Positions 10,651 through 25,596 of a stretch of DNA of 29,722 nt are shown piece by piece. The DNA comes from a virus. The DNA is taken from the IMG/VR virus record IMGVR_UViG_3300046352_000017, positions 1-29,722 of that record. One strand, 5' to 3'. The notes under the pieces were generated by a model. It was given only the letters and a program-made list of their open reading frames with translations. It was not told where the DNA came from and did not search any database. Position 1 is the stretch's first letter; each line of letters begins with the position of its first letter. The position numbers were made by a program, and so were the translations under genes.

Positions 10651-11817
10651 ATGGAATTTATAGTAACTACTGCTTTAAAAAAGCTATTACGTCTACAAAA
10701 GCGTATTAAGGTCGTTAGGGGTGGAACATCTGCCTCTAAGACCTTTTCTATTTTACCAATACTAATAGACAGGGCAATAAAAACGTCTAACCTTGAAATA
10801 AGTGTTGTTTCTGAATCTATACCACATTTGCGTAGGGGTGCATTAAAAGACTTCTTAAAAATAATGATGGCTTTAGGTAGGTACAATGACAATCAGTTTA
10901 ATAAGTCTACTTTAAAATATACATTTGGCAATGGAAGTTATATTGAATTCTTTTCAGTTGACCAGCCTGATAAATTACGTGGTGCAAGAAGAAATATATT
11001 ATATGTTAATGAGTGTAACAATGTAGACTTTGATTCATACTACCAATTAGCAATTAGAACCAGTGGGGAAATATGGTTAGATTATAACCCTTCAAGTTTA
11101 TTTTGGGTTGATAGGGAAATAATAACGCAAGATGATGTAGACTTTATTACATTAACCTATTTAGATAATGAAGCATTAGCTGACACTATTGTAAAAGAAA
11201 TAGAATCAGCAAAGGTTAAGGCATTAACTTCAGCTTATTGGGCTAACTGGTGGCAAGTATATGGATTAGGGTTAACAGGTTCTTTAGAAGGTGTATGTAT
11301 TCCTGATTGGCAAGAAATAAACTTACCTACTGAAGCCCGTTTACTTTGTTACGGAATGGACTGGGGTTATAGCAATGATCCAACTTCATTAATAGCTATG
11401 TACAAATACAATGATGCTTACATATTTGACGAACTAATATACCAAAAAGGGTTACTAAATTCAGATATTAGCGACTTACTTAAAACAAACAACGTTGAAG
11501 ATATAGTTTATGCTGATAGTGCTGAGCCAAAATCAATAGCTGAGTTAAATAGTTACGGACACAATGTGTTACCAGTTAGCAAGGGTAGAGATAGCATCGT
11601 TTACGGCCTTAATTTAATTAACCAAAATAAAGTTTATGTTACATCAAGAAGCAAGAACTTAATTAATGAATTAAGAAACTACATTTGGATGACAGACAAA
11701 CAGGGTAATAAATTAAACAAACCTATAGACGCATACAACCACGCTATTGATGCAATGCGTTATGCAATTACTTCACAATTAGAAAACCCAAACAAGGGTA
11801 CTTATTACGTCTACTAA
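10651..11817 (+). CDS. terL: terminase large subunit
   Basis: The 388-residue protein is a Terminase_3-type ATPase and nuclease that packages DNA into the prohead. The P-loop GGTSASKT is at 24-31, Walker B NILYVNE at 115-121 with the catalytic Glu, and DYNP at 144-147 is the coupling motif. In the nuclease domain, D237 (GMDWG), D289 (YADSAE) and D367 (HAIDAMRY) make the RNase-H-like metal site. Length and motif order are normal for siphophage TerL. The stop shares a base with the ATG of the next small ORF (TAATG). This is among the surest calls in the window. Confidence 0.95.
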   Translation: MEFIVTTALKKLLRLQKRIKVVRGGTSASKTFSILPILIDRAIKTSNLEISVVSESIPHLRRGALKDFLKIMMALGRYNDNQFNKSTLKYTFGNGSYIEFFSVDQPDKLRGARRNILYVNECNNVDFDSYYQLAIRTSGEIWLDYNPSSLFWVDREIITQDDVDFITLTYLDNEALADTIVKEIESAKVKALTSAYWANWWQVYGLGLTGSLEGVCIPDWQEINLPTEARLLCYGMDWGYSNDPTSLIAMYKYNDAYIFDELIYQKGLLNSDISDLLKTNNVEDIVYADSAEPKSIAELNSYGHNVLPVSKGRDSIVYGLNLINQNKVYVTSRSKNLINELRNYIWMTDKQGNKLNKPIDAYNHAIDAMRYAITSQLENPNKGTYYVY

Positions 11818-11966
11818 TGACATACGGTAATATCATAGCAGTAATACAATGTTATATCCACCACGTTAAAGGTGTTCAGGTAGTAATTAACTTGCCACGT
11901 AATATTGGTGAAATAAAAAAGATGCAGGCTATGTATAAAGTTGCTGAACAATATTTAAGGGTGTAA
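11817..11966 (+). CDS. small hypothetical protein coupled to terL
   Basis: The 49-residue ORF (MTYGNIIAVIQCYIHHVKGV...) starts in the TAATG overlap with terL and ends at TAA 11964-11966. It has a beta-rich first half and a helical end (KKMQAMYKVAEQYLRV). No family is recognised. The one-base overlap suggests expression with terL and perhaps a packaging-related role, but nothing in the sequence shows this. A short inverted repeat follows, without a T-tract. Confidence 0.5.
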   Translation: MTYGNIIAVIQCYIHHVKGVQVVINLPRNIGEIKKMQAMYKVAEQYLRV

Positions 11967-12046
11967 CCTTAAGTAATTTAATTTTATTAAGGCTATTACC
12001 TTAAACGTTAAACAAAAGTTAAAGAAATGTTAAAGTTTTAAAATAG

Positions 12047-12077
12047 TTTTGTATTGTTAATAACCTTTGTATATTTG
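12047..12077 (+). promoter_or_regulatory. Bacteroidota-type promoter
   Basis: TTTTG at 12047-12051 and TATATTTG at 12070-12077 have an 18-nt spacer between TTG and the -7 element. TTGTTAATAAC (12054-12064) and several GTTAAA copies (12006-12035) lie within or upstream. The ATG at 12108 is 31 nt downstream, after an AAACAAAAACACAAATT leader. Confidence 0.8.
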
Positions 12078-12107
12078 TACAAGTTAAAACAAACAAAAAC
12101 ACAAATT

Positions 12108-12323
12108 ATGGAAACTTTAAAAAACAACTTTGAAACTGTAACTAACAACATCTACAACAATCAACAATTTTTATTAAACTCTTTTAATAACTTTTTAAAT
12201 GATAATGTTGACTTTAAAAAAGAGTTCTTTAAAGCAACAAAAGAAGAACAAGATAACTTATTTGGTTATGTAGTAAATTCTTTAATAGGTAGAATAGCAA
12301 TTGAAGAAACTTTTAAAAACTAA
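12108..12323 (+). CDS. small acidic hypothetical protein
   Basis: The 71-residue protein begins METLKNNFETVTNNIYNNQQ and is Asn/Phe-rich and helical. The frame is open upstream to 12054, but those codons cover the promoter and leader, so ATG 12108 is the likely start. It is the first gene behind a strong promoter and is followed by a small cysteine-rich ORF. Function is unknown; early expression is likely from the promoter type. Confidence 0.6.
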   Translation: METLKNNFETVTNNIYNNQQFLLNSFNNFLNDNVDFKKEFFKATKEEQDNLFGYVVNSLIGRIAIEETFKN

Positions 12324-12327
12324 TATT

Positions 12328-12447
12328 ATGGAATGGTATGATTTTTTAAACCCAAACGAACAACCTGAAAACGAATGCAGGTATTGTGGTGAAGCTTGTC
12401 ACAAATCATATTGTGATACTAATTGCGAAATGGCAGATGAAGATTAA
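12328..12447 (+). CDS. small cysteine-rich, acidic protein
   Basis: The 39-residue ORF reads MEWYDFLNPNEQPENECRYC, then GEAC and YCDTNC, and ends EMADED. Five cysteines in CxxC-x3-C and C-x3-C spacing plus a His suggest a zinc site. It starts 4 nt after the previous stop, after an AATATT leader, and ends before the terminator. Function is unknown. Confidence 0.5.
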   Translation: MEWYDFLNPNEQPENECRYCGEACHKSYCDTNCEMADED

Positions 12448-12474
12448 TTAGGTTTTAAATATGTTGGTTAATTA

Positions 12475-12501
12475 GGTAGTCAGAAATGGCTGCCTTTTTT
12501 T
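12475..12501 (+). terminator. intrinsic terminator before the structural genes
   Basis: GGTAGTC (12475-12481) pairs with GGCTGCC (12488-12494), including two G-U pairs, with a 6-nt loop. Seven T follow. Confidence 0.8.
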
Positions 12502-12554
12502 ATGCCTTTAATACAATAATGTGAAATGTTTATTTATAAATAAAACAAAACAGA

Positions 12555-13232
12555 ATGAAAATAGAATTAACAATACCAACAACGCTAAATGATATAAAGC
12601 TGGTGCAGTACCAAAAGTTTTTATCTATAGCAAAAGACAATGAAGAAGGAGAATTTTTGCAGCAGAAAATGGTGCAGCTGTTTTGCGGTATAGATTTAAA
12701 AGATGTAGCTCAAATTAGATACAAAGATGTTGCTGAAATTACTGCTAATATTAATAAACTATTTACAAAAGAAAACGCATTTATACAACGGTTTAAAATG
12801 GGCGGTGTAGAGTTTGGGTTTATACCTAACCTTGACGATATGACAACTGGCGAGTATATGGATTTAGATAATTACATTACAGACTGGGATACTATGCACA
12901 ATGCGATGGCGGTATTATACAGGCCTATTACAAATAAGTTAGGAAACAAATACCAAATAGAAGAATACAAAGGTTCTGTAACATATGCTGACGTAATGCG
13001 CCACGCACCATTAGACGTAGTGTTAGGGGCTATGGTTTTTTTTTACACTTTAGGCAACGACTTGTTGAAAAGTACGATAAACTATTTGGAGGAGAATCAG
13101 GAGCTGCAGAATATTCTGAACAGGCACAATTTGGAAAACGTTGGGGATGGTATTCAAGTATCTATGCTCTTGCTCAAGGAAACGTTAGAAGATTTGATGA
13201 AGTTTCCAAGCTACCAATCACCCAAAGTTTAA
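12555..13232 (+). CDS. tail assembly chaperone, zero-frame product (gpG-like)
   Basis: The 225-residue protein starts MKIELTIPTTLNDIKLVQYQ and contains FGFIPNLDDMTTGEYMDL and HNAMAVLYRP, a pattern I recall from proteins of the tail chaperone/assembly class in Bacteroidota phages. Such proteins hold the tape measure protein and tail tube ready for assembly and are not part of the finished tail. The ORF ends at TAA 13230-13232, leaving 61 nt before the next gene in an otherwise gap-free cluster. That space is filled by a -1 ORF (see next entry). The start is preceded by the ATTTATAAATAAAA block shared with other late genes. Confidence 0.7.
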   Translation: MKIELTIPTTLNDIKLVQYQKFLSIAKDNEEGEFLQQKMVQLFCGIDLKDVAQIRYKDVAEITANINKLFTKENAFIQRFKMGGVEFGFIPNLDDMTTGEYMDLDNYITDWDTMHNAMAVLYRPITNKLGNKYQIEEYKGSVTYADVMRHAPLDVVLGAMVFFYTLGNDLLKSTINYLEENQELQNILNRHNLENVGDGIQVSMLLLKETLEDLMKFPSYQSPKV

Positions 13233-13297
13233 CTTGGTTAACATTTGAAAAGGAAAAAACAGAAATAGAAATGAAACTTATAAATAAAAAACAATGA
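12555..13297 (+). CDS. tail assembly chaperone, probable -1 frameshift fusion (gpGT-like)
   Basis: The zero-frame reading passes GTT TTT TTT TAC at 13035-13046. A slip of -1 on T TTT TTT (13037-13043) joins codon 163 to an 84-residue ORF from 13043 to the TGA at 13295-13297, giving 247 residues. This -1 ORF has no ATG near its start and is open from 12992. It reads like real protein: FGKRWGWYSSIYALAQGNVR, then RFDEVSKLPITQSLTWL and KTEIEMKLINKK. I recall such W-G-W-Y-x-x-I-Y stretches as part of frameshifted tail chaperones. Its stop overlaps the next ATG as ATGA. The mechanism is known for lambda G/GT; its use here is inferred. Confidence 0.7.
13037..13043 (+). promoter_or_regulatory. candidate -1 slippery heptamer
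   Basis: T TTT TTT lies in the zero frame of the chaperone gene, inside a run of nine T (13036-13044). It has the X XXY YYZ form. A +1 slip would meet TAG within three codons, so only -1 gives a long product. Confidence 0.65.
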
Positions 13298-13749
13298 AAG
13301 GATTTTACCAAATAAGCAAAGCAATTAAAGACCAGTTAGCTGCTGATGCTTTTGTAAACACTATTACAATGGGCGATATATTTAAAGTTGATTTAAATAA
13401 ACAAACTATATTTCCATTGTCCCATATAATGATTAATTCAGCTGCTTACAACGGTAATACTTTTAACTATAGTATTTCTGTTTTATGTATGGATATAGTA
13501 GATGAATCAAAAGAAGCTACTACTGATATATTTACAGGTAATGACAACGAGCAAGATGTATTAAATACTCAGCAAATGGTTGCAACACGTTTACTTGAAA
13601 TGCTAAGACGTGGCGACTTATACACTAACGGTTACCAGTTACAAGACGGTGCCAATATAGAATACTTTGTTGATAGGTTTGAAAACAAGGTAGCAGGTGT
13701 AACGGTAACTTTTAACGTGGTTGCACAAAATGATATGACTATCTGCTAA
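13294..13749 (+). CDS. putative tail terminator or tail completion protein
   Basis: The 151-residue protein starts MKGFYQISKAIKDQLAADAF and has an alternating alpha/beta pattern: VLCMDIVDESKEA, NTQQMVATRLLEMLRRGD, and a C-terminal strand pair FENKVAGVTVTFNVVAQND. This resembles small head-tail joining proteins of the tail-terminator class, and the neighbour is a HK97 gp10-like protein. ATGA overlaps connect it to both the frameshift product and the next gene. It would act at the top of the tail. The family is inferred from size, fold pattern and position. Confidence 0.45.
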   Translation: MKGFYQISKAIKDQLAADAFVNTITMGDIFKVDLNKQTIFPLSHIMINSAAYNGNTFNYSISVLCMDIVDESKEATTDIFTGNDNEQDVLNTQQMVATRLLEMLRRGDLYTNGYQLQDGANIEYFVDRFENKVAGVTVTFNVVAQNDMTIC

Positions 13750-14306
13750 TGGAATTAACAGAAGTAAATATTATATTAAACCGCTTTAAAGATTACGTTA
13801 TTCAGCAATCAAGGAGTAACCTATCTAAAAGCAAAAAGAACAATACTAAAACTTTATACAATAGTATTAAAGGGGAAGTTATTACCGAAGATAGTTATTC
13901 TATTGTAGGCTTTTCAATGGATGATTACGGCCAGTTTGTTGACAAAGGTGTTAAGGGTGCTGAACCTTCCAAAGTTTCGCCTAATGCAAAAATAACAGGA
14001 CAACAAGCGCCTGATAGCCCGTATAGTTTTAAAAACTTAAGACCACCTTCCAAACCTTTGGCTGATTGGGCAAAAAGTAAAAATTTAAGGTTAAGGGATA
14101 GCAAAGGTAAATTTAAAGAAGGTAGCTATAAAACAATAGGGATAATACTGGCTAGAAACATTTGGGCAAGGGGTATTAAACCAAGTTTATTTTTTACAAA
14201 GCCATTTGAAGCAGGATACAAAAAATACATAGACACAGATTTAATTAAAGCATTTAGCCAAGACATAGACACAATGATAGATTATAATTTAAAAAATACA
14301 AAATGA
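13749..14306 (+). CDS. HK97 gp10-like neck/tail completion protein
   Basis: The 185-residue protein contains IVGFSMDDYGQFVDKGVKG, a hallmark of HK97-gp10-like proteins, then SPYSFKNLRPPSKPLADWA, LRLRDSKGKFKEG and GIKPSLFFTKPFE near the C-terminus. Proteins of this family cap or complete the tail or neck. The start overlaps the stop of the previous gene by one base (TAATG) and its end overlaps the next ATG. Length is normal for the family in Bacteroidota phages. Confidence 0.75.
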   Translation: MELTEVNIILNRFKDYVIQQSRSNLSKSKKNNTKTLYNSIKGEVITEDSYSIVGFSMDDYGQFVDKGVKGAEPSKVSPNAKITGQQAPDSPYSFKNLRPPSKPLADWAKSKNLRLRDSKGKFKEGSYKTIGIILARNIWARGIKPSLFFTKPFEAGYKKYIDTDLIKAFSQDIDTMIDYNLKNTK

Positions 14307-15361
14307 TAATATATACAAGAAGCCCGTACTTCATTACAGTAAATGAATCAGGGCAAGTAGGTTCTAAAATAGAATTAAGAATATGGAATGGAACTGGTTC
14401 AGTGCCTACACCTGCTACATATACTTTTAGTAAATCTATTGCAAGTTCAACACAAACTGAAAACGTTTATAATATCAGTAACTTTGTAAAAGAATATATA
14501 GACAACGTTGCACCTGTTTACGCTGCAGGAGAAACTGATTCAACTACTATGTGGGCAAACGTACAAGTTAAACGCTTTAAAGAAACTTCAGTAGGTTCTT
14601 ATACCTTGTTAGATACTACTACATATTTAGGAACTAACGGATATACTTTATTTACTGATGGTTATAATTACACTAATGCTTCAAATACTTTTATGCTTTT
14701 GTCAGACAATACAAAAGAAATTAGATATGACATTACAAAATCAATTCCATACGTTAACGTATTAATTAACCCTGCAGGTGGAGATGTTATAACTGCTACT
14801 TATAAGGATTTAAGAGGCAGAAATGAATTGGTAGTTGGCTACACAGAAACAAAAGGAATGCTCAAAATACCATTAACAACTACAAGCGTAAAATACAATA
14901 AAGGCAACACATTAACTATTACTTATAACGAAACTACTTTTCAGTATAGAGTTATACCTATTTGTGAACCTAAATACTCGCCAGTAATTTGTTCTTATAT
15001 TAACCGCTTTGGTGGTTGGCAATTTTTAACATTTTTTAAGAGCCGTACAGACAATATAAATGTAGAAGGCAGTAACTACAACTTACTTCAAGATTCAATT
15101 AACTACAACGTATCTAAAGGACAAAGTAAGTCATTTAACATTAATGGTAAGCAAACTGTAAAATTAAGTTCTGGTTTTGTTCCTGAAAATTACTCTGATT
15201 TAATACAAGATTTGTTATTAAGTGAAACTGTATTGTTAGACGGTAAACCAGTTGAAGTAAAAACGCAAGCAACTACATTAAAGACATCATTACAAGACAA
15301 GAACATTAATTACGAAATAGAATTTGATTACGCATTTAACCTAATTAACAACGTTATTTAA
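14303..15361 (+). CDS. virion structural (tail or baseplate) protein
   Basis: The 352-residue protein is rich in beta-strand patterns and Thr/Ser/Asn, for example IYTRSPYFITVNESGQVG, then KIELRIWNG and KSIPYVNVLINPAGGDVITA. It has no signal peptide or transmembrane segment. I recall similar proteins in Bacteroidota siphophages next to the large baseplate-like protein that follows here. The start overlaps the previous gene by ATGA and the stop overlaps the next start by TAATG. A distal-tail or baseplate role is likely from position upstream of the tape measure, but its exact place is unknown. Confidence 0.55.
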   Translation: MIIYTRSPYFITVNESGQVGSKIELRIWNGTGSVPTPATYTFSKSIASSTQTENVYNISNFVKEYIDNVAPVYAAGETDSTTMWANVQVKRFKETSVGSYTLLDTTTYLGTNGYTLFTDGYNYTNASNTFMLLSDNTKEIRYDITKSIPYVNVLINPAGGDVITATYKDLRGRNELVVGYTETKGMLKIPLTTTSVKYNKGNTLTITYNETTFQYRVIPICEPKYSPVICSYINRFGGWQFLTFFKSRTDNINVEGSNYNLLQDSINYNVSKGQSKSFNINGKQTVKLSSGFVPENYSDLIQDLLLSETVLLDGKPVEVKTQATTLKTSLQDKNINYEIEFDYAFNLINNVI

Positions 15362-17307
15362 TGGTAACAATAGGATTATATATTTACATTAACGGAATAT
15401 CAAATCGCGTTGAATTATTTGAGGATGAAAAGATTTCTATTACATCTTCAGTTCAAGACGTTAGTGATATTTCTAAAGTAAGAACAGATTTTAGCCAATC
15501 TTTTACAGTGCCAGCAAATGAAAACAATAATAAAATATTTAGCCACTGGTATAATAGTTCTTTAGATGGCGGCTTTGATGCAAGAAAAAGAAAAGATGCT
15601 TATATTGAATTAGACACAATACCATTTAGAAAAGGTAAAATACAATTAGAAAAAGCAAATATTAAAAACGGTATCCCTGAAGATTACACAATTACTTTTT
15701 TTGGTAGTTTGGTTTCTTTAAAAGATACCTTTGCTGAAAAGAAATTATTTGATTTAGACTTTAGCGACTATAACTTTACTTATACTGGTGGCGATGTAGT
15801 TGATAGGGTTAGTGGTGCAATAACTAATGATGTTAAGTTTCCATTAATCACTTCGAATAGAGTTTGGACTGAAACAGGAACTACTGAAAACATAACTACT
15901 TCAGGTGGTGCTATATTAACAAACGAATTATTCCCTGCATTACGTTTGAGTAAAGTGTTTGATACAATAGAATCTGATTATGGTATTACATTCCAAGGCG
16001 ACTTTTTAACTGATGCAAGGTTTACAAATGCTTTTTTATGGTTAAAGAATGCTGAAACTTTTGTACCTAAAAGTAGCTTGACTAAAATAGAGTTTTCTAC
16101 AAGTTCAGGGTTTCCAGTTGGTAGTCGTTGGTTTTTAGGTAGCACATTAACGTATGTTCAACCTTCTACTTTTGTTAATACTTCTGTTCAATTGAGTATT
16201 ACTGCAGCTACAACTGGAATTGATTACCAAATATTACTTTATAAAAATGGTTCGTTAGTTACTACGTTTCCTGTTCCAAACAAAAACACTGCTACAAATA
16301 CGTTCACGCTTTTAAACTTTGTATCTGATTTACCTGCAAACGTAGGTAGCTATGAATTTTATATTCAATCAGAAGCACCATTAACATTCTCAAATGCTTT
16401 AACAGTATTTGTAACTGGCTTCAATAACGGTACTGCAAGCAAAGCTTCTTCAACTACATCAGGATTGGTAAACATTTCTTCTTTTATGCCAGATATTAAA
16501 GTAGAAGATTTCTTTAGTGGTATTTTAAAGATGTTTAACTTGACCTGTATTAGCTATGAAAAAAACGTTTATGAAATACAAGAATTAGAATCTTGGTATG
16601 CTGATGGAAATATTACAGATATAACTCAATACGTTTTAAGTGATGATATTTCTGTTGAAAGATTACAGTCTTATAAAAAAATTAATTTTAAATACCAAAA
16701 GTCAGAATCATTAATGAATGTAGCCTATGCTTCTAACAACGGAATAGAGTATGGCGATTTATTAGCTGATTTAGATACCGATGGTGGTGAATATGGTGTT
16801 CAATTACCATTTGAAAACTTATTATTCAATAAATTAACTGGGCAAAATTTGCAGGTAGGTTACGCACTAAAGCAAGACTTTAAAAACTACCAACCAAAAC
16901 CAGTTATACTATACGACTATAACACTTTACAAAGCTGTAATTTTTATTTAAAATACGATACAACTACAACTAATGTTACTTCATACAACTGCTTTGGGCA
17001 AGATACTTTAATTGGTTCAACAAATTATAGTTTAAATTTTGGTAATGAAATTAGTTCTTTATTATTAACACCAATTTCAAACAGTTTGTATAACGTTTAC
17101 TATTATAATTATTTGAGTAATATATACAATGTAAAAACAAGAAAGTATAACTTAAAAGCTATTTTACCAGTTAGCCTATTAACTAAATTAAAATTAAATG
17201 ACAGGGTTATAATACGTGACACAAGGTATTTAATTGATAATATGAACATAGACTTAAATTCAGGCGAAGTAAGTTTAACCCTAATAAACGACTACAGAAT
17301 ATTATGA
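15361..17307 (+). CDS. large tail/baseplate structural protein
   Basis: The 648-residue protein begins MVTIGLYIYINGISNRVELF and has the conserved N-terminal stretch DISKVRTDFSQSFTVPANEN, then NNKIFSHWYNSSLDGGFDAR and PFRKGKIQLEKANIKNG, which I recall from flavobacterial phage structural proteins. The centre (about 260-360) is a Thr/Ser-rich beta region. Later parts (EDFFSGILKMFNLTCI, DDISVERLQSYKKINF) resemble baseplate hub folds, and the end has LPVSLLTKLKLNDRVIIRDT. It is probably a tail-tip or hub protein. An ATGA overlap links it to the next small gene. Confidence 0.6.
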   Translation: MVTIGLYIYINGISNRVELFEDEKISITSSVQDVSDISKVRTDFSQSFTVPANENNNKIFSHWYNSSLDGGFDARKRKDAYIELDTIPFRKGKIQLEKANIKNGIPEDYTITFFGSLVSLKDTFAEKKLFDLDFSDYNFTYTGGDVVDRVSGAITNDVKFPLITSNRVWTETGTTENITTSGGAILTNELFPALRLSKVFDTIESDYGITFQGDFLTDARFTNAFLWLKNAETFVPKSSLTKIEFSTSSGFPVGSRWFLGSTLTYVQPSTFVNTSVQLSITAATTGIDYQILLYKNGSLVTTFPVPNKNTATNTFTLLNFVSDLPANVGSYEFYIQSEAPLTFSNALTVFVTGFNNGTASKASSTTSGLVNISSFMPDIKVEDFFSGILKMFNLTCISYEKNVYEIQELESWYADGNITDITQYVLSDDISVERLQSYKKINFKYQKSESLMNVAYASNNGIEYGDLLADLDTDGGEYGVQLPFENLLFNKLTGQNLQVGYALKQDFKNYQPKPVILYDYNTLQSCNFYLKYDTTTTNVTSYNCFGQDTLIGSTNYSLNFGNEISSLLLTPISNSLYNVYYYNYLSNIYNVKTRKYNLKAILPVSLLTKLKLNDRVIIRDTRYLIDNMNIDLNSGEVSLTLINDYRIL

Positions 17308-17453
17308 TAAAAGAAATACTAAATCTTTTAATGACTGGAAACCATTACGGAGAAAGTGAAACTATAGAAATTGCTAAAGGTAAATACGAATTACCAAACA
17401 GTTGGAAAAAAGGATTAAACCAAATTAAAAGAGAAATAAAATGGCTGAAGTAA
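17304..17453 (+). CDS. small hypothetical protein between hub and tape measure genes
   Basis: The 49-residue ORF (MIKEILNLLMTGNHYGESET...IKREIKWLK) starts in ATGA overlap with the preceding stop and overlaps the tape measure start by 13 nt. Both couplings support translation. It is amphipathic and helical, with Lys and Trp near the end. No family is recognised. Position just before the tape measure suggests a tail-assembly accessory role. Confidence 0.5.
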   Translation: MIKEILNLLMTGNHYGESETIEIAKGKYELPNSWKKGLNQIKREIKWLK

Positions 17454-19180
17454 AAACAGTAGAATTAAAAATAACCACTAACATACCTGACGCATCTAAA
17501 AAAATAGATGGTTTAAAAACAAGTATTGACGGCGCTAAAGAAAGTACAAAAGGTTTAAAGAAAGAAACTGAATCTGTAAACGAAGGCGGGTTTAATAAAT
17601 TAGGTGAGTCTTTATCTAACCTATCGCCAGCTTTTCAGTCAGGTATTCAAGGGGCAAAGACTTTAGGTGTTCAATTATTAGCTTTAGCAGCTAACCCTAT
17701 TGGCGCAACTATTTTGGCCGTAGTTGGTGCGGTTACATTATTATATAAAGCATTTGCTTCTACTAATGATGGTGCTGACAAACTTGAACAAATAATGGAT
17801 GGTTTGGGTGCGGTTTTAAACGTCTTAAGAGACAGGGTTTTATCTGCTGGTAAAGCTATTGCTAATTTCTTTTCTGGAGACTTTAAAGGGGCTTTAGCTG
17901 AAGCTCGTAAGTCAGTTGGTGGACTTGGTAGTGAAATTGAAAAAGAATTTAAACAGGCCGCTACTGCTAAAAGGTATTTACAAGAAGTAGAAGATTCATT
18001 ACGTTCGTTAAGTGTTTCACGTGCAAGGTTAAACAGAGATTTAGCAAGGTCGAAAGAAATCATAACTGATGAAAATGCAAGTTATGCTGAAAAGAAAAAA
18101 GCTATTGAAGCAGTAAGAATAGCTGAAGAAAAGCAAACACAAGCTGAATTAAGAAATGCGGAAAAGAAGCTAAAGGCTATTAAATTAGCAAATAGTTTAT
18201 CAGATGTAAGTGATGAAAATTTAGACAAGCAAGCACAAGCAGAAGCTGAATTATTTGCATTGCAAGAAAAAAGCGCAAGTGATAGACGTGCTATCCGTAA
18301 AACTGAAATTAGAGCAGACAAAGAAGAAGCTGCAAGGGTAAAAGATATTGCTGATAAACGTGCTGCAAAGATAAAAGAAGAATCTGATACAAGAAAAGCA
18401 GCTAATAAAAAAGCACTACAACAAAGAAAAGAATATATAAATAAAGAAAAAGTTGTAGAAGATGAAGTAAAATTAGCAAAAGAAGCTTTAGTTTTAAAAC
18501 AAAAAAATCAATACTTTGAAGAAATTGCTGCTAACAATGCTAAAAATAAAAAAATTGTTGATGACAATAAATTAAGGGTTGAAGCTGAAAGGTTAGTTGA
18601 AGAAGAAAGAGCAAATGCTGCTATTGAGTTTGAAAAGAAAAAGAATGAAGCTATAGCAAATTCAAAAGCTAACTTAACTAATATAGTGGCTAATTTAGAA
18701 GCTTCAGGTTTGGCAAAAACAAAAGCAGGTCAAGTTATATCTAAAGCAATTGCATTAACTCAAATTGGTATTGATTCTGCAGTAGCTATTTCTAAGGCAT
18801 CTACATTAGCAAATGCTGAAGGGGTTGCTGCTCAATTAGCCTTTCCATTAGTTCCTGGAATTGGTACTATTGCAAGAGTCGTATCGTACGCTTCTACTGC
18901 AGCTTCTGTTATTGGTAATATAGCAAGGGCAAAACAATTATTGTCAAGCGGTGGTAATGCCGCTGCGAGTATTGGTGTTGGTGGTGGTAATAATGGTGGG
19001 TCAGCGCCTGCTGCACCTGCTGCACCTACATTTAACGTAGTTGGTACAAGTGGGCAAAACCAAATAGCGCAATCTTTAGGTAGTCAGGCACCTGTTAAGG
19101 CCTATGTAGTTAGTAATGATGTAACAACTGCACAAAGCTTAGATAGAAATATTGTTAACACTGCTACATTAGGTAATTAA
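17441..19180 (+). CDS. tail tape measure protein
   Basis: The 579-residue protein begins MAEVKTVELKITTNIPDASK, then a hydrophobic, Ala/Gly-rich segment (LGVQLLALAANPIGATILAV, about 75-105), then a long Lys/Glu/Ala coiled coil (about 200-420), then another hydrophobic region (GVAAQLAFPLVPGIGTIARV) and a Gly/Pro/Ala tail. Helical rod plus membrane-like patches is the pattern of a tape measure, which sets tail length and may pass into the host envelope on DNA ejection. Using roughly 0.15 nm per residue, the tail would be near 90 nm, short for a siphophage. The hydrophobic patches are probably not true transmembrane segments. Confidence 0.8.
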   Translation: MAEVKTVELKITTNIPDASKKIDGLKTSIDGAKESTKGLKKETESVNEGGFNKLGESLSNLSPAFQSGIQGAKTLGVQLLALAANPIGATILAVVGAVTLLYKAFASTNDGADKLEQIMDGLGAVLNVLRDRVLSAGKAIANFFSGDFKGALAEARKSVGGLGSEIEKEFKQAATAKRYLQEVEDSLRSLSVSRARLNRDLARSKEIITDENASYAEKKKAIEAVRIAEEKQTQAELRNAEKKLKAIKLANSLSDVSDENLDKQAQAEAELFALQEKSASDRRAIRKTEIRADKEEAARVKDIADKRAAKIKEESDTRKAANKKALQQRKEYINKEKVVEDEVKLAKEALVLKQKNQYFEEIAANNAKNKKIVDDNKLRVEAERLVEEERANAAIEFEKKKNEAIANSKANLTNIVANLEASGLAKTKAGQVISKAIALTQIGIDSAVAISKASTLANAEGVAAQLAFPLVPGIGTIARVVSYASTAASVIGNIARAKQLLSSGGNAAASIGVGGGNNGGSAPAAPAAPTFNVVGTSGQNQIAQSLGSQAPVKAYVVSNDVTTAQSLDRNIVNTATLGN

Positions 19181-19217
19181 CAAAAACCAAATAATTTAAT
19201 TTATAAATAAAAATAAA

Positions 19218-20120
19218 ATGCGAATAGTAGAATTAATAATAGACGAAAAAGAAGACTTAAGTGGTGTTGAAGCTATTTCAGTTGTAGAATTTCCTGCAAT
19301 AGAAGAAAACTTTATAGCACTTAATCAACAATTACAACTTGCAAAAGTAGATGAAGAAAAGCGTATCTTAATGGGTGCTGCTTTAATTCCAAACAAGAAT
19401 ATCTACAGACGCAATGGTGAAGATGAATATTATATTTTCTTTTCAGATGCTACAGTAAAAAAGGCAAGTGAATTATTCTTAATGAATAGCAACCAAAACA
19501 ATGCTACATTAGAACACCAAAAAAAGATAAATGATTTATCTGTAGTTGAATCTTGGATTGTTGAAGATACTGAAATGGACAAGTCTAAAAAATATGGTTT
19601 AAATGCACCCGTTGGAACTTGGATGGTTAGTATGAAAGTAAACAATGATACTATTTGGAATGACTTTGTAAAAACTGGTAAAGTAAAAGGTTTTTCTATT
19701 GAAGGATATTTTGCAGATAAATTAGAGATGAGTTTGCAATTAGAAAAAGAAGAAGAATTACTAAATAAGATTAAAGATATAATTCTAAACAACGAAAAAA
19801 AAAAGATTAGTTTAGAAAGTTATACAGACTACCCTGAACAAGCTACTGAAAATGCTAAAATAGCTTTGCGTTATGCTGAAGAAAATGGTTGGGGTAGTTG
19901 TGGTACTGCAGTAGGTAAAGCAAGAGCAAACCAATTAGCAAACCGTGAACCAATAAGTGAAGATACTATTGCAAGAATGGCTTCATTTGAAAGACAAAGA
20001 CAAAATTCTGATAGGGAACTTGGTGATGGTTGTGGTCGTTTAATGTGGTTAGCTTGGGGTGGTGATGCAGGTGTAGAATGGGCTCAAAGAAAATTAGAAC
20101 AAATAAAAAATGATAAATAA
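19218..20120 (+). CDS. prohead protease-like protein (XkdF type) with a C-terminal extra domain
   Basis: The 300-residue protein has an XkdF-like serine protease part: ALIPNKNIYRRNGEDEYYIF, then LEHQ with H100, VVESWIVED with S112, GTWMVSMKVN, and KGFSIEGYF with S160 (about 50-165). The protease matures the capsid by trimming scaffold and other head proteins. Residues 201-297 form a separate domain (SYTDYPEQATENAKIALRYA, GKARANQLANREPISEDTIA, LMWLAWGG) that I recall as a conserved flavobacterial phage domain of unknown function. Which serine is catalytic cannot be decided here. It lies upstream of scaffold and capsid, as expected, with the HNH gene inserted in between. Confidence 0.7.
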   Translation: MRIVELIIDEKEDLSGVEAISVVEFPAIEENFIALNQQLQLAKVDEEKRILMGAALIPNKNIYRRNGEDEYYIFFSDATVKKASELFLMNSNQNNATLEHQKKINDLSVVESWIVEDTEMDKSKKYGLNAPVGTWMVSMKVNNDTIWNDFVKTGKVKGFSIEGYFADKLEMSLQLEKEEELLNKIKDIILNNEKKKISLESYTDYPEQATENAKIALRYAEENGWGSCGTAVGKARANQLANREPISEDTIARMASFERQRQNSDRELGDGCGRLMWLAWGGDAGVEWAQRKLEQIKNDK

Positions 20121-20133
20121 ACTAATTAAAATT

Positions 20134-20316
20134 ATGGGAAAAACAACAAGTCCAAAAGGCGGTAACAGGGGATGTCTTGGTAAAGACGGAAAATATGCAA
20201 TTGAAAATTGTGATGGCGAATTACAATCACAAGGAATTGGTAGTACAGTTCGACAAGGTGGTGCTACAGTAACTGTAGTAGATGGTGTAAAAACTATTGT
20301 TAGAAGTAACGGTTAA
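20134..20316 (+). CDS. small Gly-rich hypothetical protein
   Basis: The 60-residue protein starts MGKTTSPKGGNRGCLGKDGK and ends VTVVDGVKTIVRSNG. The frame is open to 20110, but ATG 20134 has the better A-rich leader (AACTAATTAAAATT), and similar small phage proteins start MGKTT or MGTTT. It has two cysteines and several Gly. It sits between the protease and the HNH gene. It may be a small virion or assembly factor, but this is only context. Confidence 0.55.
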   Translation: MGKTTSPKGGNRGCLGKDGKYAIENCDGELQSQGIGSTVRQGGATVTVVDGVKTIVRSNG

Positions 20317-20323
20317 ATATATA

Positions 20324-20350
20324 AGGGTAGTTTAATCGCTACCCTTTTTT
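20324..20350 (+). terminator. intrinsic terminator at the end of the tail/protease unit
   Basis: AGGGTAG (20324-20330) pairs with CTACCCT (20339-20345) around 8 nt, followed by T to 20350. It lies between the converging forward unit and the antisense HNH gene, whose stop is at 20349. Confidence 0.85.
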
Positions 20351-21086
20351 AATATTTAGAACTTTTTTTAAGATTATCAGCAGCCCATAATGGTTGAAAG
20401 TTACTATAATGATTTAACTCTATAACTTCTTCTTCTGTATTAGCTAAAATTAATGGTTTTATGTGGTCAAGATGCCATTTACCATAATTTTCAAAATTCA
20501 TTCCTTCAGTAAATTTAGATTTAATAAATAAAGAAAATTCTTCTATTGTACAACCTAATATTTTTTCTGATTTTGCTCTTTTAGTAAATTGATTATTGCC
20601 ACGTTTAAAAGAACCACTAATTAAACTTCTAACATTAGATTTGAATCTAAATATGTGGTCAACTTTTTTTCTATTTTTTTGTCTTATTGTATTTATTTGA
20701 GATTTAATTGTTTTGTCACCAATATTTTTATTGCAACATTTACAAAGATTTACAACTATTTCTTTTTTTAAAAATACAATATCAATATCATTTACACATC
20801 TTTCATTCTTACAACAAACACATTGAAATACATAATAATTTTCCATTAAGTATAATCTAAATCCAAATTCAGTACCGCCTTTTTTTAAGTGCTTTTTAAA
20901 CAAAGTTAAAACTTCATCTAAATATTCTTGCTTTATATGTTTAGGTATATTTACTCTATTTTTATATTGTAAGTTTTGAATCTTATTTTGTTCTCTAATA
21001 AATACTTTATCGTATTGGTAATCCCAATCTACTTTATTATATAGATTGTCAAGCTTTTTTAAATTTTCTTTTTTAGGTAAATACAT
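20349..21086 (-). CDS. antisense HNH homing endonuclease
   Basis: The 245-residue protein on the minus strand starts MYLPKKENLKKLDNLYNKVD. Cysteine pairs CVCC and CKCC (about residues 110-138) suggest a zinc-binding part. The C-terminal HNH domain has WHLDHIKPL with H205, D207 and H208, then NFQPLWAADNLKKSS with N229 and N238, the canonical metal-binding and core residues. The ILGCTIEEFSLFIKSKF lead-in is typical of phage HNH proteins. It is a free-standing homing nuclease inserted opposite to all neighbouring genes, between protease and scaffold. It has its own promoter and structured leader. I see no sign of an interrupted host gene at its edges. Confidence 0.85.
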   Translation of the reverse strand: MYLPKKENLKKLDNLYNKVDWDYQYDKVFIREQNKIQNLQYKNRVNIPKHIKQEYLDEVLTLFKKHLKKGGTEFGFRLYLMENYYVFQCVCCKNERCVNDIDIVFLKKEIVVNLCKCCNKNIGDKTIKSQINTIRQKNRKKVDHIFRFKSNVRSLISGSFKRGNNQFTKRAKSEKILGCTIEEFSLFIKSKFTEGMNFENYGKWHLDHIKPLILANTEEEVIELNHYSNFQPLWAADNLKKSSKY

Positions 21087-21089
21087 ATT

Positions 21090-21172
21090 TTAAAAATAAA
21101 AACCCCCTCTAATAGTACCGCCAAGTAAACTAAAAGAGAGGGAATTATAATATTTTAATCTTGGCGGATTTA
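21090..21172 (-). ncRNA. structured 5' leader of the HNH gene: candidate attenuator or pseudoknot
   Basis: Read on the minus strand from a start near 21172, the leader has CCGCCAAG (21167-21160), CCCTCT (21142-21137), CTTGGCGG (21125-21118) and AGAGGGGG (21110-21103), then TTTTTATTTTT, then the ATG at 21086. The arms alternate A-B-A'-B'. So either the 8-bp A:A' stem and the B:B' stem exclude each other (antiterminator versus terminator) or they form an H-type pseudoknot. B:B' gains a TAGT/ACTA inner stem. Function is inferred from the layout; no known riboswitch consensus is recognised. Confidence 0.55.
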
Positions 21173-21178
21173 TATATG

Positions 21179-21212
21179 CAAATATAAAACAAATAATTTA
21201 AAATATAACAAA
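21179..21212 (-). promoter_or_regulatory. Bacteroidota-type promoter for the antisense HNH gene
   Basis: On the minus strand, TTTG (21212-21209) is followed, with a 22-nt spacer counted from TTG, by TATATTTG (21186-21179). The expected start near 21172 lies just before the first arm of the structured leader. Confidence 0.65.
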
Positions 21213-21259
21213 CTTTTTTTATTTTATTATAAAGATATTAATATTAATATAAAAATAAT

Positions 21260-21844
21260 ATGAGTGTTTTAAACGAAATTAAGACTTTGCTTGGGATGGA
21301 AGTAAAACTTGCCCAAATGAAACTTGAGAACGGCACGGTAATCGAAGCAGAAGCTTTTGAACCTGAAATGGCTGTTTTTATAGTTAACGAGGAAGATAGA
21401 ATTGCAATGCCTGTAGGTGAATACCTTTTAGAAGACGGAATGCTTTTAAAGGTTGAAGTTGAAGGAATTATTGCTTCTGTTGAAATGCCTGAAGAAGTAG
21501 CCCCTGAAGCTGAAGAAGAAGTTGCTGCTCCTGCTGAAGAAGTAGAAGTTGAAGCATCTGCTCCTATGGCTACTCCTAAAAGGATTGTAGAATCTGTTTC
21601 TAAAGAAATGTTCTTTTCTGAAATTGAAAAATTAAGAAATGAAATTGCTGAATTGAAAGGTGTTAAATTATCTTCTGATGAAGAAGACAAAACTGATGAT
21701 GATTTAAAATCTAAAGAAGTTGAATTGAGTGTTGAACCATTAACACATTCACCTGAAGTTAAAGAAGTTAAAATTCAACAATTCGCATCTAACAGAGCCT
21801 TAACTACACAAGATAGAGTTATGGCAAAAATTTTTAATAAATAA
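21260..21844 (+). CDS. scaffold-like head assembly protein
   Basis: The 194-residue protein is acidic and lies between protease and capsid. Its N-terminus (MSVLNEIKTLLGMEVKLAQM, then DGMLLKVEVEGIIA) looks like a compact beta domain. A Glu/Ala/Val-rich middle (about 75-105) follows, then a helix EMFFSEIEKLRNEIAELKGV that predicts a coiled coil, and a variable Glu/Asp/Ser tail. This composition is typical of scaffolding proteins that are later cut by the prohead protease. I recall related flavobacterial phage proteins without a firm name. It directly precedes the major capsid gene. Confidence 0.6.
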   Translation: MSVLNEIKTLLGMEVKLAQMKLENGTVIEAEAFEPEMAVFIVNEEDRIAMPVGEYLLEDGMLLKVEVEGIIASVEMPEEVAPEAEEEVAAPAEEVEVEASAPMATPKRIVESVSKEMFFSEIEKLRNEIAELKGVKLSSDEEDKTDDDLKSKEVELSVEPLTHSPEVKEVKIQQFASNRALTTQDRVMAKIFNK

Positions 21845-21863
21845 TAAACTAAATAAATAAAAA

Positions 21864-22799
21864 ATGGCTACTACTACAAGTATTACTACAACTTATTCGG
21901 GAAGTTTTGCAGGTAAATATATTTCTGCAGCTTTACTTTCTGCTTCTACTATCGAAAATGGTGGTATCGAAGTTAAACCAAATGTTAAATACAAAGAAGT
22001 AATTAAAAAAATTGCTACTGACGGATTAGTTAAAAACGCAACTTGTGATTTTGACGCTACATCTACTGTAACTTTAACTGAAAGAATTTTGGTTCCAGAG
22101 GAATTCCAAATTAACCTATCTTTGTGCAAAAAAGACTTTAGGTCAGATTGGGAAGCGATTGAAATGGGATATTCTGCTTTTGATTCTTTGCCACCAAGCT
22201 TTGCTGATTTCTTGTTAGGACACGTTGCTGCTAAAGCTGCTGAAAACAATGAAATCTCAATTTGGAGAGGCGCTAATGCTACAGCTGGACAATTTGATGG
22301 ATTAGTAACTTTAGCTACTGCTGATTCAACTGTTATTGATGTGGTTGGAACTTCTGTTACAGCTTCAAATGTAATTGCTGAAATGGGTAAGGTAATTGAC
22401 GCAATCCCTGCTGCACTTTACGGAAAAGAAGATTTGTACTTATACGTTTCTCAAAACGTTGCACGCGCCTACGTGAGACAACTTGGTGGATTTGGTGCAT
22501 CAGGATTAGGTGCTAATGGTACAAATGCTCAAGGAACACAATGGTTTAACAATGGTTCATTATCTTTTGATGGTGTTAAAATCTTTGTTGCTAATGGAAT
22601 GGCTAACAACTTTATGATGGCTGCTGAAAAATCTAACTTATACTTTGGTACAGGTTTATTGTCTGACCATAACGAAGTTAAATTAATCGATATGGCTGAC
22701 GTTGACGGAAGTCAAAATGTAAGAGTTGTAATGCGTTATACAGCAGGTGTACAATACGGAATCGGTTCTGATATCGTTCTTTACACTCCTGCATCATAA
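21864..22799 (+). CDS. major capsid protein
   Basis: The 311-residue protein matches Bacteroidota phage major capsid proteins of HK97 type. It starts MATTTSITTTYSGSFAGKYI, has ERILVPEEFQINLSLCKKDF and FADFLLGHVAAKAAENNEIS in the centre, then LYLYVSQNVARAYVRQLGG. It ends NVRVVMRYTAGVQYGIGSDI followed by VLYTPAS. It is expected to form the icosahedral shell after scaffold removal. Codons are somewhat less AT-biased than in the early genes, as often seen for highly expressed proteins. A strong terminator follows within 30 nt, so it may be a separate transcript end. Confidence 0.85.
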   Translation: MATTTSITTTYSGSFAGKYISAALLSASTIENGGIEVKPNVKYKEVIKKIATDGLVKNATCDFDATSTVTLTERILVPEEFQINLSLCKKDFRSDWEAIEMGYSAFDSLPPSFADFLLGHVAAKAAENNEISIWRGANATAGQFDGLVTLATADSTVIDVVGTSVTASNVIAEMGKVIDAIPAALYGKEDLYLYVSQNVARAYVRQLGGFGASGLGANGTNAQGTQWFNNGSLSFDGVKIFVANGMANNFMMAAEKSNLYFGTGLLSDHNEVKLIDMADVDGSQNVRVVMRYTAGVQYGIGSDIVLYTPAS

Positions 22800-22824
22800 T
22801 TTAAGCTATCTTTTTAAAACGAGA

Positions 22825-22856
22825 GGGGTGGTGGAATAAACACCATCCCTTTTTTT
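22825..22856 (+). terminator. intrinsic terminator after the capsid gene
   Basis: GGGGTGGTG (22825-22833) pairs with CACCATCCC (22841-22849), 9 bp with one G-U, followed by seven T. Confidence 0.9.
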
Positions 22857-22880
22857 AATTAACTTATAAAAATATAAAAA

Positions 22881-23408
22881 ATGGCTTGTGAAATTTCATT
22901 AGGTAGAATTGAACCTTGCAAAGATAGCAATGGTGGATTAAAAGCGGTTTACTTTGTAAACTGGGGTGATATGACAGGGGTAACTTATGACGTAACTAAT
23001 ACAGATGCTATTAGTGCGGTTGCAGGTACTCCAAGTGCATACAAATATGACTTGAAAGGTAATAGTTCATTCGAACAAGCAATTACTTCTTCAAGAGAAA
23101 ATGGAACTACATTCTTTGAACAAACTTTGAACTTAACTTTGAAGAAATTGTCTATTGTAGACCACAAACAAATTAAATTATTAGCTTATGGTCGCCCACA
23201 AGTTGTAGTTGAAGACAACAACGGAAACTTATTCTTGTGTGGTTTAGAACACGGAATGGATGTATCAGGTGGTACAATTGTAACTGGTGCTGCTATGGGT
23301 GATTTGTCAGGATATACTTTGACATTATCAGGACAAGAAGCAGTTCCTGCAAATTTCTTGACTACTACTTTAACCTCTGCTGGTTTCACTGTAGTTTCAG
23401 GGTCATAA
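22881..23408 (+). CDS. probable major tail (tube) protein or other virion protein
   Basis: The 175-residue protein begins MACEISLGRIEPCKDSNGGL and contains NSSFEQAITSSRENGTTFFE, LKKLSIVDHKQIKLLAYGRP, EDNNGNLFLCGLEHG and GAAMGDLSGYTLTLSGQEAV. The beta-rich pattern, with an EQ...TSSREN loop and a late GLEHG motif, is one I recall from flavobacterial phage structural proteins. Tail-tube proteins have a similar two-sheet layout. It is flanked by terminators on both sides, which fits a strongly expressed monomer such as the tube. The role is inferred, not shown. Confidence 0.6.
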   Translation: MACEISLGRIEPCKDSNGGLKAVYFVNWGDMTGVTYDVTNTDAISAVAGTPSAYKYDLKGNSSFEQAITSSRENGTTFFEQTLNLTLKKLSIVDHKQIKLLAYGRPQVVVEDNNGNLFLCGLEHGMDVSGGTIVTGAAMGDLSGYTLTLSGQEAVPANFLTTTLTSAGFTVVSGS

Positions 23409-23433
23409 TTGTTTGTTTTTTTGATTGGAAAAG

Positions 23434-23458
23434 GGGTGGCTTCGGCTACCCTTTTTTT
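23434..23458 (+). terminator. intrinsic terminator with TTCG tetraloop
   Basis: GGGTGGC (23434-23440), TTCG (23441-23444) and GCTACCC (23445-23451) form a 7-bp stem with one G-U pair and a C(UUCG)G cap. Seven T follow. Confidence 0.9.
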
Positions 23459-23507
23459 GTTTTAAATAACAATAATTAAATAGATTTATTATTAAATAAA
23501 AAAAAGA

Positions 23508-23837
23508 ATGATAATCTTAAAAGAACAAGAAGCTGCACAAGTTTTAAAATTCATACCTCGTAGTTATGGTGCTGATACTATTGTATTAAGAAACGAAACT
23601 ACTAATGAAGTTCAAACTATTTCTGCATCATTTGCTTTAGATAAATATTATTTGACAACTACTACTGCTTTTGATTTATTACAGAATACATTTTATAATT
23701 TAACTATTAAGAATGGTGCTGAAGTGGTTTACAAAGATAAAGTATTTTGCACGAATCAAAATATAGTTAACTATACAGTCAACAAAGATGAATATGTGGC
23801 AAACGCTACAAATAACGATTTTATAATTTATGAGTAA
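23508..23837 (+). CDS. hypothetical virion-associated protein
   Basis: The 109-residue protein starts MIILKEQEAAQVLKFIPRSY and has alternating short strands (TIVLRNETTNEVQTISASFA, FYNLTIKNGAEVVYKDKVFC), probably a small beta fold. The C-terminus overlaps the portal start by 8 nt. It follows a terminator and an AT-rich leader. I recall similar small proteins in flavobacterial phages beside head genes. Its role may lie in head-tail joining, but this is context only. Confidence 0.5.
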   Translation: MIILKEQEAAQVLKFIPRSYGADTIVLRNETTNEVQTISASFALDKYYLTTTTAFDLLQNTFYNLTIKNGAEVVYKDKVFCTNQNIVNYTVNKDEYVANATNNDFIIYE

Positions 23838-25596
23838 TATATCAATTGTAAATTTAAGTGCTTATACAAGCCCTGTAATTCAAGAAAATAAGAAATCAGA
23901 CTATATTGAGTATGGTGTAGATAATAACTACTTTCAATACTTAATTGATAGATATCTGTATTCAGCTACAAACAATGCTATTATCACTGGTGTTACCAAT
24001 ATGATTTATGGTAAAGGATTAGATGCATTAGATTCTAATCGTAAACCTAATGAATATGCACAAATGCGTAGTATCATTAAAGGTGATATGTTAAAGCGAG
24101 TAGCTATGGAGCGTAAAATGCTTGGAATGGGTGCTATGCAAGTTGTAATGGAAAAAGGTCAAGTTAAATCTATAGACCACTTCCCAATGAATACATTAAG
24201 AGCTGAAAAATGCAATGATAAAGGAGAAATTGAAGCTTGGTACTATTACCCTGATTGGACTAAAAAGAAGCCTTCTGAACAAGCTAAAAGAATTCCTGCA
24301 TTTGGATTCGGAAATGGTAATGAAGTTGAAATGTATGTGGTACATCCTTATGTTAGTGGATTTCATTATTACACACCTATTGATTATTCAGGTGCTTTAC
24401 CTTATGCTAAATTAGAAGAAGAAATTAGTGATTACTTGATTAATGATGTTCAAAACGGATTTTCAGGAACTAAAGTAATTAACTTTAACAATGGTATTCC
24501 TTCTGAAGAAATGCGTGACAAAATTAAACGTGACGTATTAAATAAATTAACTGGTTCAAGAGGTGAAAAAGTAATTGTAGCATTTAACGCTAATGCAGAA
24601 TCTAAAACTACAGTTGAAGATATTCCATTAAATGATGCACCAGCACATTACGAATATTTAAGTACAGAATGTTTTGAAAAGTTAATTGTAGGACATAGAG
24701 TTACATCGCCTATGCTTTTGGGTATTCGTGATACTGGAGGTGGATTAGGTAACAATGCAGATGAAATTAAAACTGCTACTTTGTTATTTGATAACATAGT
24801 AATTAAACCTTACCAACTTGAATTGATTAATGCTATTGATGAAATTTTAGCAGTTAATAATATTAGCTTAAAATTATACTTTAAGACTATACAACCTTTA
24901 GAATTTGTAGATGCTTCAGGAATGAATGCAGAAACTGCTGAAGAAGAAACAGGTATTAAAATGTCTGCACATACAGACCCGATTATTGCAAATGCTTTAA
25001 TTGATAAAGGTGAACAACTTGGTGAAGAATGGGTGTTGATTGATGAAACAGAAGTAGATGTAGAATCTGAAGAAGATTTAGATGCTGAAATTGAATCTTT
25101 AAATAATCCTAAAAAGAAAGAATTGTCTTTAATTCAGAAATTAGCAACTGCTATTACAGGCAGACCTAATGCAAAGAGTTCACAAGACGAAAATGTAGAT
25201 GGTATTAGATTCATTACAAGATATAAATATTCAGGTGCTGAATCAGGCGAAAGAGAATTCTGCAATAAGATGTTAAGAGCTGATAAACTTTACAGAAAAG
25301 AAGATATAGTAAACACTAATTCTAATTTTGTAAACTCAGGTCAAGGTCACAAAGGATTACCTTATGATTTATTCTTATACAAAGGTGGAGTTAATTGTAA
25401 GCACAAATGGTTAAGACAAACTTATGTTTCATTTGATAACGTAAAAATTGATGTTACCAATCCTAATGCAACACAAATTAGTACAAACAAGGCAGAAAAA
25501 TATGGATATAGAGTTAGGAATCCTAAAGAGGTTGCTATGACACCATACGATATGCCAAATCACGGACATCATCCTGACTATAATAAAGAAAATTAA
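23830..25596 (+). CDS. portal protein fused to a C-terminal Cys/His domain
   Basis: The 588-residue protein carries a portal-type body (about 1-400): VNLSAYTSPVIQENKKSDYI, ATNNAIITGVTNMIYGKGLD, then LSTECFEKLIVGHRVTSPML and LGIRDTGGGLGNNADEIKTA, with a linking acidic stretch (about 400-440). Portals form the ring through which DNA enters and leaves the head. Residues 460-588 form a second domain (RFITRYKYSGAESGEREFCN, C478, H507, C523, H525 in GGVNCKHKW) that I recall in separate or Mu-gpF-like minor head proteins of Bacteroidota phages. Here it is fused to the portal. The gene follows capsid and tail genes, unlike the usual portal-before-capsid order. Confidence 0.7.
   Translation: MSNISIVNLSAYTSPVIQENKKSDYIEYGVDNNYFQYLIDRYLYSATNNAIITGVTNMIYGKGLDALDSNRKPNEYAQMRSIIKGDMLKRVAMERKMLGMGAMQVVMEKGQVKSIDHFPMNTLRAEKCNDKGEIEAWYYYPDWTKKKPSEQAKRIPAFGFGNGNEVEMYVVHPYVSGFHYYTPIDYSGALPYAKLEEEISDYLINDVQNGFSGTKVINFNNGIPSEEMRDKIKRDVLNKLTGSRGEKVIVAFNANAESKTTVEDIPLNDAPAHYEYLSTECFEKLIVGHRVTSPMLLGIRDTGGGLGNNADEIKTATLLFDNIVIKPYQLELINAIDEILAVNNISLKLYFKTIQPLEFVDASGMNAETAEEETGIKMSAHTDPIIANALIDKGEQLGEEWVLIDETEVDVESEEDLDAEIESLNNPKKKELSLIQKLATAITGRPNAKSSQDENVDGIRFITRYKYSGAESGEREFCNKMLRADKLYRKEDIVNTNSNFVNSGQGHKGLPYDLFLYKGGVNCKHKWLRQTYVSFDNVKIDVTNPNATQISTNKAEKYGYRVRNPKEVAMTPYDMPNHGHHPDYNKEN

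Follow-up and report, generated by a model that had tools for sequence, protein, structure and literature searches.

The window analysed here, a stretch of 29,722 bases (G+C 30.5%) that constitutes an uncultivated virus record, carries what is very probably a programmed recoding gene with two selected products (probability about 0.82). This estimate, drawn from comparison of the gene with its relatives, covers recoding and the selection of both products and not the choice of the machine that slips. Ordinary expression would yield a protein of 225 aa composed of an N domain and a zero-frame tail, while in a fraction of events a base would be added, or a slip back by one base would occur, at a run of nine T (T9), giving a protein of 247 aa in which the same N domain is joined to an M domain read in the -1 frame. 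We infer that both proteins are made, in a phage lineage whose hosts, known or inferred, are Flavobacteriia/Bacteroidota. The features concerned are as follows.

10651-11817: terminase large subunit, preceding the recoding gene
12555-13232, plus strand: zero-frame ORF of 225 aa, PHROG 32199 (unknown function), comprising the shared N domain and the zero-frame tail
12555-13043, plus strand: N-terminal domain of 163 codons, present in both products, supported by alignments
13036-13044, plus strand: T9 slip site, GTT TTT TTT TAC, with at least nine T in 281 of 281 distinct relatives
13037-13043, plus strand: T_TTT_TTT heptamer inside T9, phased for -1 tandem slippage
13043-13297, plus strand: -1 frame tail (the M domain), 84 aa and a TGA, predicted helical, with a WGWY motif, reachable by a shift only
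13044-13232, plus strand: zero-frame tail, 62 aa and a stop, overlapping the M domain and forming the dual-coding stretch, from four-fold-site and codon-position tests
13051-13053, plus strand: TAG closing the +1 frame, two codons past the slip in 279 of 281 relatives
13294-13749, plus strand: next gene, 151 aa, PHROG 30964, its ATG overlapping the -1 stop (ATGA), with similar neighbours in loci L298 and L299
17441-19180: putative tape measure gene, named by length and position, its PHROG function unknown

An earlier note, made from the letters of the window, had described a hidden -1 frameshift ORF in this gene, and most of its reading holds. The -1 frame of the gene that begins at 12555 is indeed open from 12992 to the TGA at 13295-13297, with ATG, GTG and TTG all absent near its beginning; the T_TTT_TTT heptamer does lie in the zero frame, within the run of nine T; and the fusion comes to 247 residues, 163 shared and 84 in the tail. 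The zero frame continues past the slip for 62 sense codons and a stop, where 63 codons had been counted, a +1 slip runs into the TAG at once, and the -1 stop overlaps the downstream ATG. The -1 ORF also fills a gap of 61 nt, but it is not the only gap in the cluster, as had been stated, since 11818-12554 and 17308-17440 are gaps as well. The former, 737 nt in an otherwise tight cluster, has no long ORF on its plus strand, the exception being a short one at 12054-12323.

Scans of viral contigs with the zero-frame protein matched 155 stretches, and those with the -1 ORF at least 589; from each set the best 80 were retained. Scans started from distant members and from genomes added further relatives, and 382 loci were scored with profiles of the N part and the M part. 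M lies in the -1 frame at 286 of the 287 first-round loci that have both parts. The exception (L114:50-125) carries a 1-base insertion about 50 nt past the slip, near a contig end, that puts M in the zero frame, and is either an error or a rare natural fusion. Removal of duplicates left 281 distinct genes, which group into 84 clusters at a protein identity of 80% and into 14 at one of 50%; these genes share ancestry, and counts over them are counts of related, non-independent sequences. Mean identity among the 84 cluster representatives is 45% for N and 50% for M. Hosts named among the matches are Nonlabens (Persicivirga) and metagenome-assembled genomes called Flavobacterium, Winogradskyella and Bacteroidetes. 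A search of about 800 sampled host genomes of the phylum and order with the N profile gave no new match, a scan of host genomes at family level gave two clear matches beyond the starting genome (L298 and L299), and viral searches directed towards distant forms returned no matches.

The slip site is strikingly constant across these relatives. Nine T are found in 271 of the 281 genes and ten in the other 10, and a shorter run in none. The two Phe codons at the slip are TTT TTT in all 281, against 175 of 412 Phe-Phe pairs (42%) elsewhere in the same loci. In two lineages the phase of the run has shifted by one base: L299/L382 and L383 read GGT TTT TTT TTG, a T having been lost on the left and another gained on the right, with nine kept. 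A C in place of T at 13043 would be silent in either frame (TTT/TTC; TTA/CTA or TTG/CTG), giving UUUUUUC, yet it occurs in none of the 281, while further upstream in this gene 27% of Phe codons are TTC, and TTT TTC accounts for 35 of the 210 Phe-Phe pairs beginning with TTT elsewhere in these loci.

None of the cases that the earlier note had named as damaging to its proposal has materialised. Every relative with both parts intact has the slippery run (L228, which lacks it, has an internal deletion), the -1 ORF is missing only where a contig is truncated or disrupted, and the relatives with ten T still require the shift. Overlapping ORFs of which the second has no start, together with a slippery sequence at the frame junction, are conserved here, as is expected of programmed -1 recoding; with the run, its phase and the -1 ORF kept in 281 relatives, chance as the origin of the -1 ORF and its slip site is excluded. 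That the frame is in truth continuous and merely broken by a sequencing or assembly error, or by decay of the gene, is hardly credible: homopolymers are error-prone and the single-base insertion in L114 does join the frames, but nine T recur across many samples and in cultured phages, and both frames are under selection, so the relatives refute this reading.

It is also highly improbable that the M domain is a separate protein, made from a start of its own by re-initiation or at a non-standard codon and never fused to N. Such a protein would agree with the annotation of two Nonlabens phages, where part of the domain is listed as its own ORF from an internal ATG, and with the presence of short M-like viral proteins in a fold library. 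However, the M frame is devoid of ATG and GTG over its first 55 codons in 272 of the 281 genes (upstream of the slip, in 279), and in the alignments the conservation of the M domain begins at the T9 run. Moreover, a fold search found eight viral proteins that match both the N and the M models in a single chain, A0A6J5N0W0 and A0A6J5SVK3 among them, which suggests that some distant relatives hold the two domains in one frame.

The claim that about 190 nt are dual-coding is borne out by two measures of diversity over the 189-nt overlap. Among 100 close relatives, diversity at codon positions 1, 2 and 3 is 0.24, 0.16 and 0.49 upstream of the slip and 0.24, 0.16 and 0.41 beyond the zero-frame stop, whereas inside the overlap the -1 frame gives 0.24, 0.14 and 0.24; wobble variation in either frame is reduced only where it is overlaid by the other coding frame. 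Differences at four-fold-degenerate sites, taken over 1,500 pairs from the 281 genes, tell the same story: outside the overlap they reach 0.44 in the zero frame upstream and 0.41 in the -1 frame beyond the zero-frame stop, and inside it 0.14 for the -1 frame and 0.18 for the zero frame. Since four-fold sites are constrained in the overlap, the zero-frame tail is selected as protein, above all over its first 30 residues, as is M; protein-level selection on both tails in the same 189 nt is thereby shown at the level of sequence.

Could the zero-frame tail nevertheless be a by-product, with selection acting on the -1 protein only and the zero frame open by chance? Most of the tail is modelled by AlphaFold2 at low confidence (pLDDT about 80 dropping to 35), and its length varies, the overlap ranging from 51 to 267 nt with 189 nt the commonest (123 of 281) and being short in the Nonlabens phages. 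Against this, the -1 frame shows differences at its four-fold sites of only 0.055-0.065 over the initial 90 nt of the overlap, and of 0.19-0.22 later, below the 0.41 seen outside it, and the probability that the zero frame stays open for at least 57 codons given the -1 protein alone averages 0.028 per gene (0.001 in the reverse case). A by-product is thus improbable, and the reading with two selected tails is preferred.

The same arrangement occurs in cultured phages. Genes 40-41 of Nonlabens phage P12024L (JQ823123; L144:6001-6695) encode homologous N and M parts with a T9 in the same phase, the -1 frame reading from the slip site LSFRERLRDLYPELY...KWGWYHTF...LAYQSDL, and P12024S_38 and _39 of Nonlabens phage P12024S (JQ823122) are arranged alike. 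The homologue was reached through the N domain and its -1 frame was then read by hand; searched by tblastn, cultured phages gave no match to the -1 tail. The overlap is only 78 nt in these two phages, in contrast to 189 nt in the window. The site had been thought to be unannotated, and in both phages two separate hypothetical proteins are listed in place of a frameshift gene, gene 41 of P12024L and gene 39 of P12024S being the -1 frame begun at an internal ATG. By their sequences, P12024L_40/_41 and P12024S_38/_39 are each one recoding gene with a T9. A further phage, Flavobacterium phage 6H (NC_021867), has an unannotated gap of about 300 nt after gp10 (L292:10044-10351, minus strand); gp10 is a fold match to the N domain and the gap holds an open, protein-like -1 frame, while the junction seemingly needs more than one shift, and a sequencing error may be present.

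Which machine slips is a separate matter. The earlier note had assumed ribosomal slippage as in lambda; the heptamer is phased for it, as proposed, but the invariant presence of nine or more T agrees with slippage by RNA polymerase equally well or better. We lean slightly, on the strength of the sequences, towards RNA polymerase, and the two could add up. In the polymerase version, part of the mRNAs would carry an additional U, and transcripts one base shorter or two longer would end after about two codons and give a product consisting of the N domain only. That slippage of RNA polymerase at the invariant T9 sets the product ratio, with some 60 codons encoding two selected tails, is a tentative proposal at not quite even odds. 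A conserved homopolymer of at least nine A or T at overlapping ORFs, as expected for such slippage, is present, and nine-base runs are avoided in other coding sequence: among 710 other ORFs of these loci, runs of nine or more A occur 4 times where synonymous shuffles predict about 40, and the observed/expected ratio falls in one abrupt step from 0.70 at A8 to 0.12 at A9 in all phases. Such a step has been interpreted as avoidance of polymerase slippage (PMC1088944), slippage at T9 is known in bacteria (PMC5009743), and RNA polymerase of E. coli slips on T runs more than on A runs (PMC6260861). Since TTTTTTC is never seen, the run has moved while nine T were kept, and A9 or longer is avoided elsewhere, the length of the run is itself taken to be a selected trait.

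The evidence from T runs is less clear-cut. Runs of nine or more T number 2 against 9.2 expected in the other ORFs, and T runs are avoided from T7 upwards, with or without a phased heptamer; as T7-T8 is avoided too, in any phase, T9 marks no clean threshold for T. The avoidance of A9 and T9 in genes could also stem from replication slippage. As an observation on codon usage in these 710 ORFs (141 loci), Phe-Phe is written TTC TTT three times as often as expected, whereas TTT TTC has only about half its expected frequency.

A purely ribosomal shift, by tandem slippage of tRNA-Phe on U_UUU_UUU in the manner of lambda G/GT and SPP1 17.5/17.5*, is quite possible though it, too, falls short of even odds, and it differs only in the slipping machine, recoding and two products being common to both. 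The X_XXY_YYZ heptamer is correctly phased in every relative, and published recoding in tail chaperones is described as ribosomal (PMC5009743), including that at UUUUUUC in SPP1 (PMC6316719). Several points stand against it, none of them decisive: seven T would suffice, yet no gene has fewer than nine, a length preserved in two lineages by displacement of the run; UUUUUUC is absent though doubly synonymous; in E. coli, U_UUU_UUU works weakly as a slip site relative to A_AAA_AAG (PMC5009743); and a nearby stimulatory RNA structure, frequent but not obligatory at ribosomal sites, was not detected with simple, pseudoknot-free folds (mean z between -0.04 and -0.27, the site folding no more strongly than shuffles or control stretches). 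In favour of the ribosome, that of these hosts may prefer UUUUUUU to UUUUUUC.

The recoding pair probably serves in tail assembly. By analogy with lambda gpG/gpGT, the two proteins would be unequally abundant chaperones of tail assembly: the N domain would hold the tape measure protein, and the M domain would bring in subunits of the tail tube, as architecture and position suggest. The name tail chaperone gene, given in the earlier note, agrees with the lambda-like architecture and the context; the tests of sequence and structure did not confirm it. Searches of Pfam and NCBIfam gave no match, nor did the PDB, by sequence or by fold, and profile comparison with HK97 gp13 showed no relation. AlphaFold2 gives a pLDDT of about 90 to most of the N domain between residues 11 and 160, and models M as a small helical domain (81). 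In a viral fold library the matches are the Nonlabens protein and many proteins of uncultured phages, with one weak match to a protein annotated as a tail assembly chaperone (E 0.06, probability 0.96). With homology and fold giving no confirmation, the chaperone role is argued from architecture and location. One further candidate, PHROG 166 ('tail protein'), was set aside as too weak, 2 of its 59 members matching at E 0.005.

It is rather unlikely that the pair recodes as described but serves the virion or its assembly in some other way. Known chaperone families, HK97 gp13 and solved structures all gave no match, which speaks for such a role, as does a gene order unlike that of lambda, with the recoding gene after the terminase and four genes, all of PHROG families of unknown function, before the putative tape measure gene. 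This spacing agrees with the three to four genes noted earlier, and the position directly upstream of the tape measure, typical of a gpG/gpGT-type chaperone, is not found. Nonetheless, an architecture identical to that of gpG/gpGT, the location between the terminase and the putative tape measure gene, and the weak fold match make the chaperone role the preferred one.

The slip site in lambda is of the GGGAAAG type. That of TP901-1 is GGGAAAG (PMC4493119). Lambda gpG/gpGT and the gene described here have in common a shared N part, a longer product made by a -1 shift, and a location upstream of the tape measure (PMC5009743); the T9 site, the long dual-coding overlap and the four intervening genes set the latter apart, and a sequence relation is not detectable, so that likeness to that family does not amount to membership. 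SPP1 17.5, compared by description, is closer in its overlap, the zero frame running on for about 61 codons past a -1 shift at UUUUUUC (173 aa against 112 shared; PMC6316719), and for this reason the overlap alone is not new; it differs in its slip site, as TTTTTTC never occurs here, and in the longer tail of 17.5*. In two sets of chaperones the distance from slip to stop averages 26 and 36 nt (PMC10274946), far below the 189 nt of the window gene, and a frameshift predictor based on this distance may miss this family. Among bacterial genes with slippage shown experimentally, an extra base at a U run joins two overlapping ORFs in Shigella mxiE, as proposed here, and Thermus dnaX has transcriptional slippage at a run of nine A (PMC1088944); the present case concerns phage morphogenesis and is read from sequence.

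A literature search of partial coverage found neither a chaperone-like family with an invariant T9 nor evidence for polymerase slippage in one. What emerges is an unannotated recoding family that is widespread among contigs of environmental phages; present-day gene calling misses its longer product, in two cultured phages as well. It offers a clean example of two protein tails evolving in one stretch of DNA and a natural test case for whether a chaperone ratio is set by RNA polymerase or by the ribosome. If true, polymerase slippage at T9 would be a different solution to the chaperone ratio in a large group of environmental Bacteroidota phages.

Further observations concern the genomic neighbourhood. 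Past the tape measure candidate lie a maturation-protease-like gene, a virion structural gene, the portal gene (23830) and a tail-fibre-like gene, and the order of the module (10651-25596) is unusual, with the terminase, the recoding gene and the tail genes ahead of the protease, structural protein and portal. The protease-like gene (19218-20120) contains a run of ten A at 19795-19804, between its protease-like and C-terminal parts; both alternative frames stop soon after it, and slippage there would thus yield a truncated protein. Runs of ten A are otherwise nearly absent from these phage genes.
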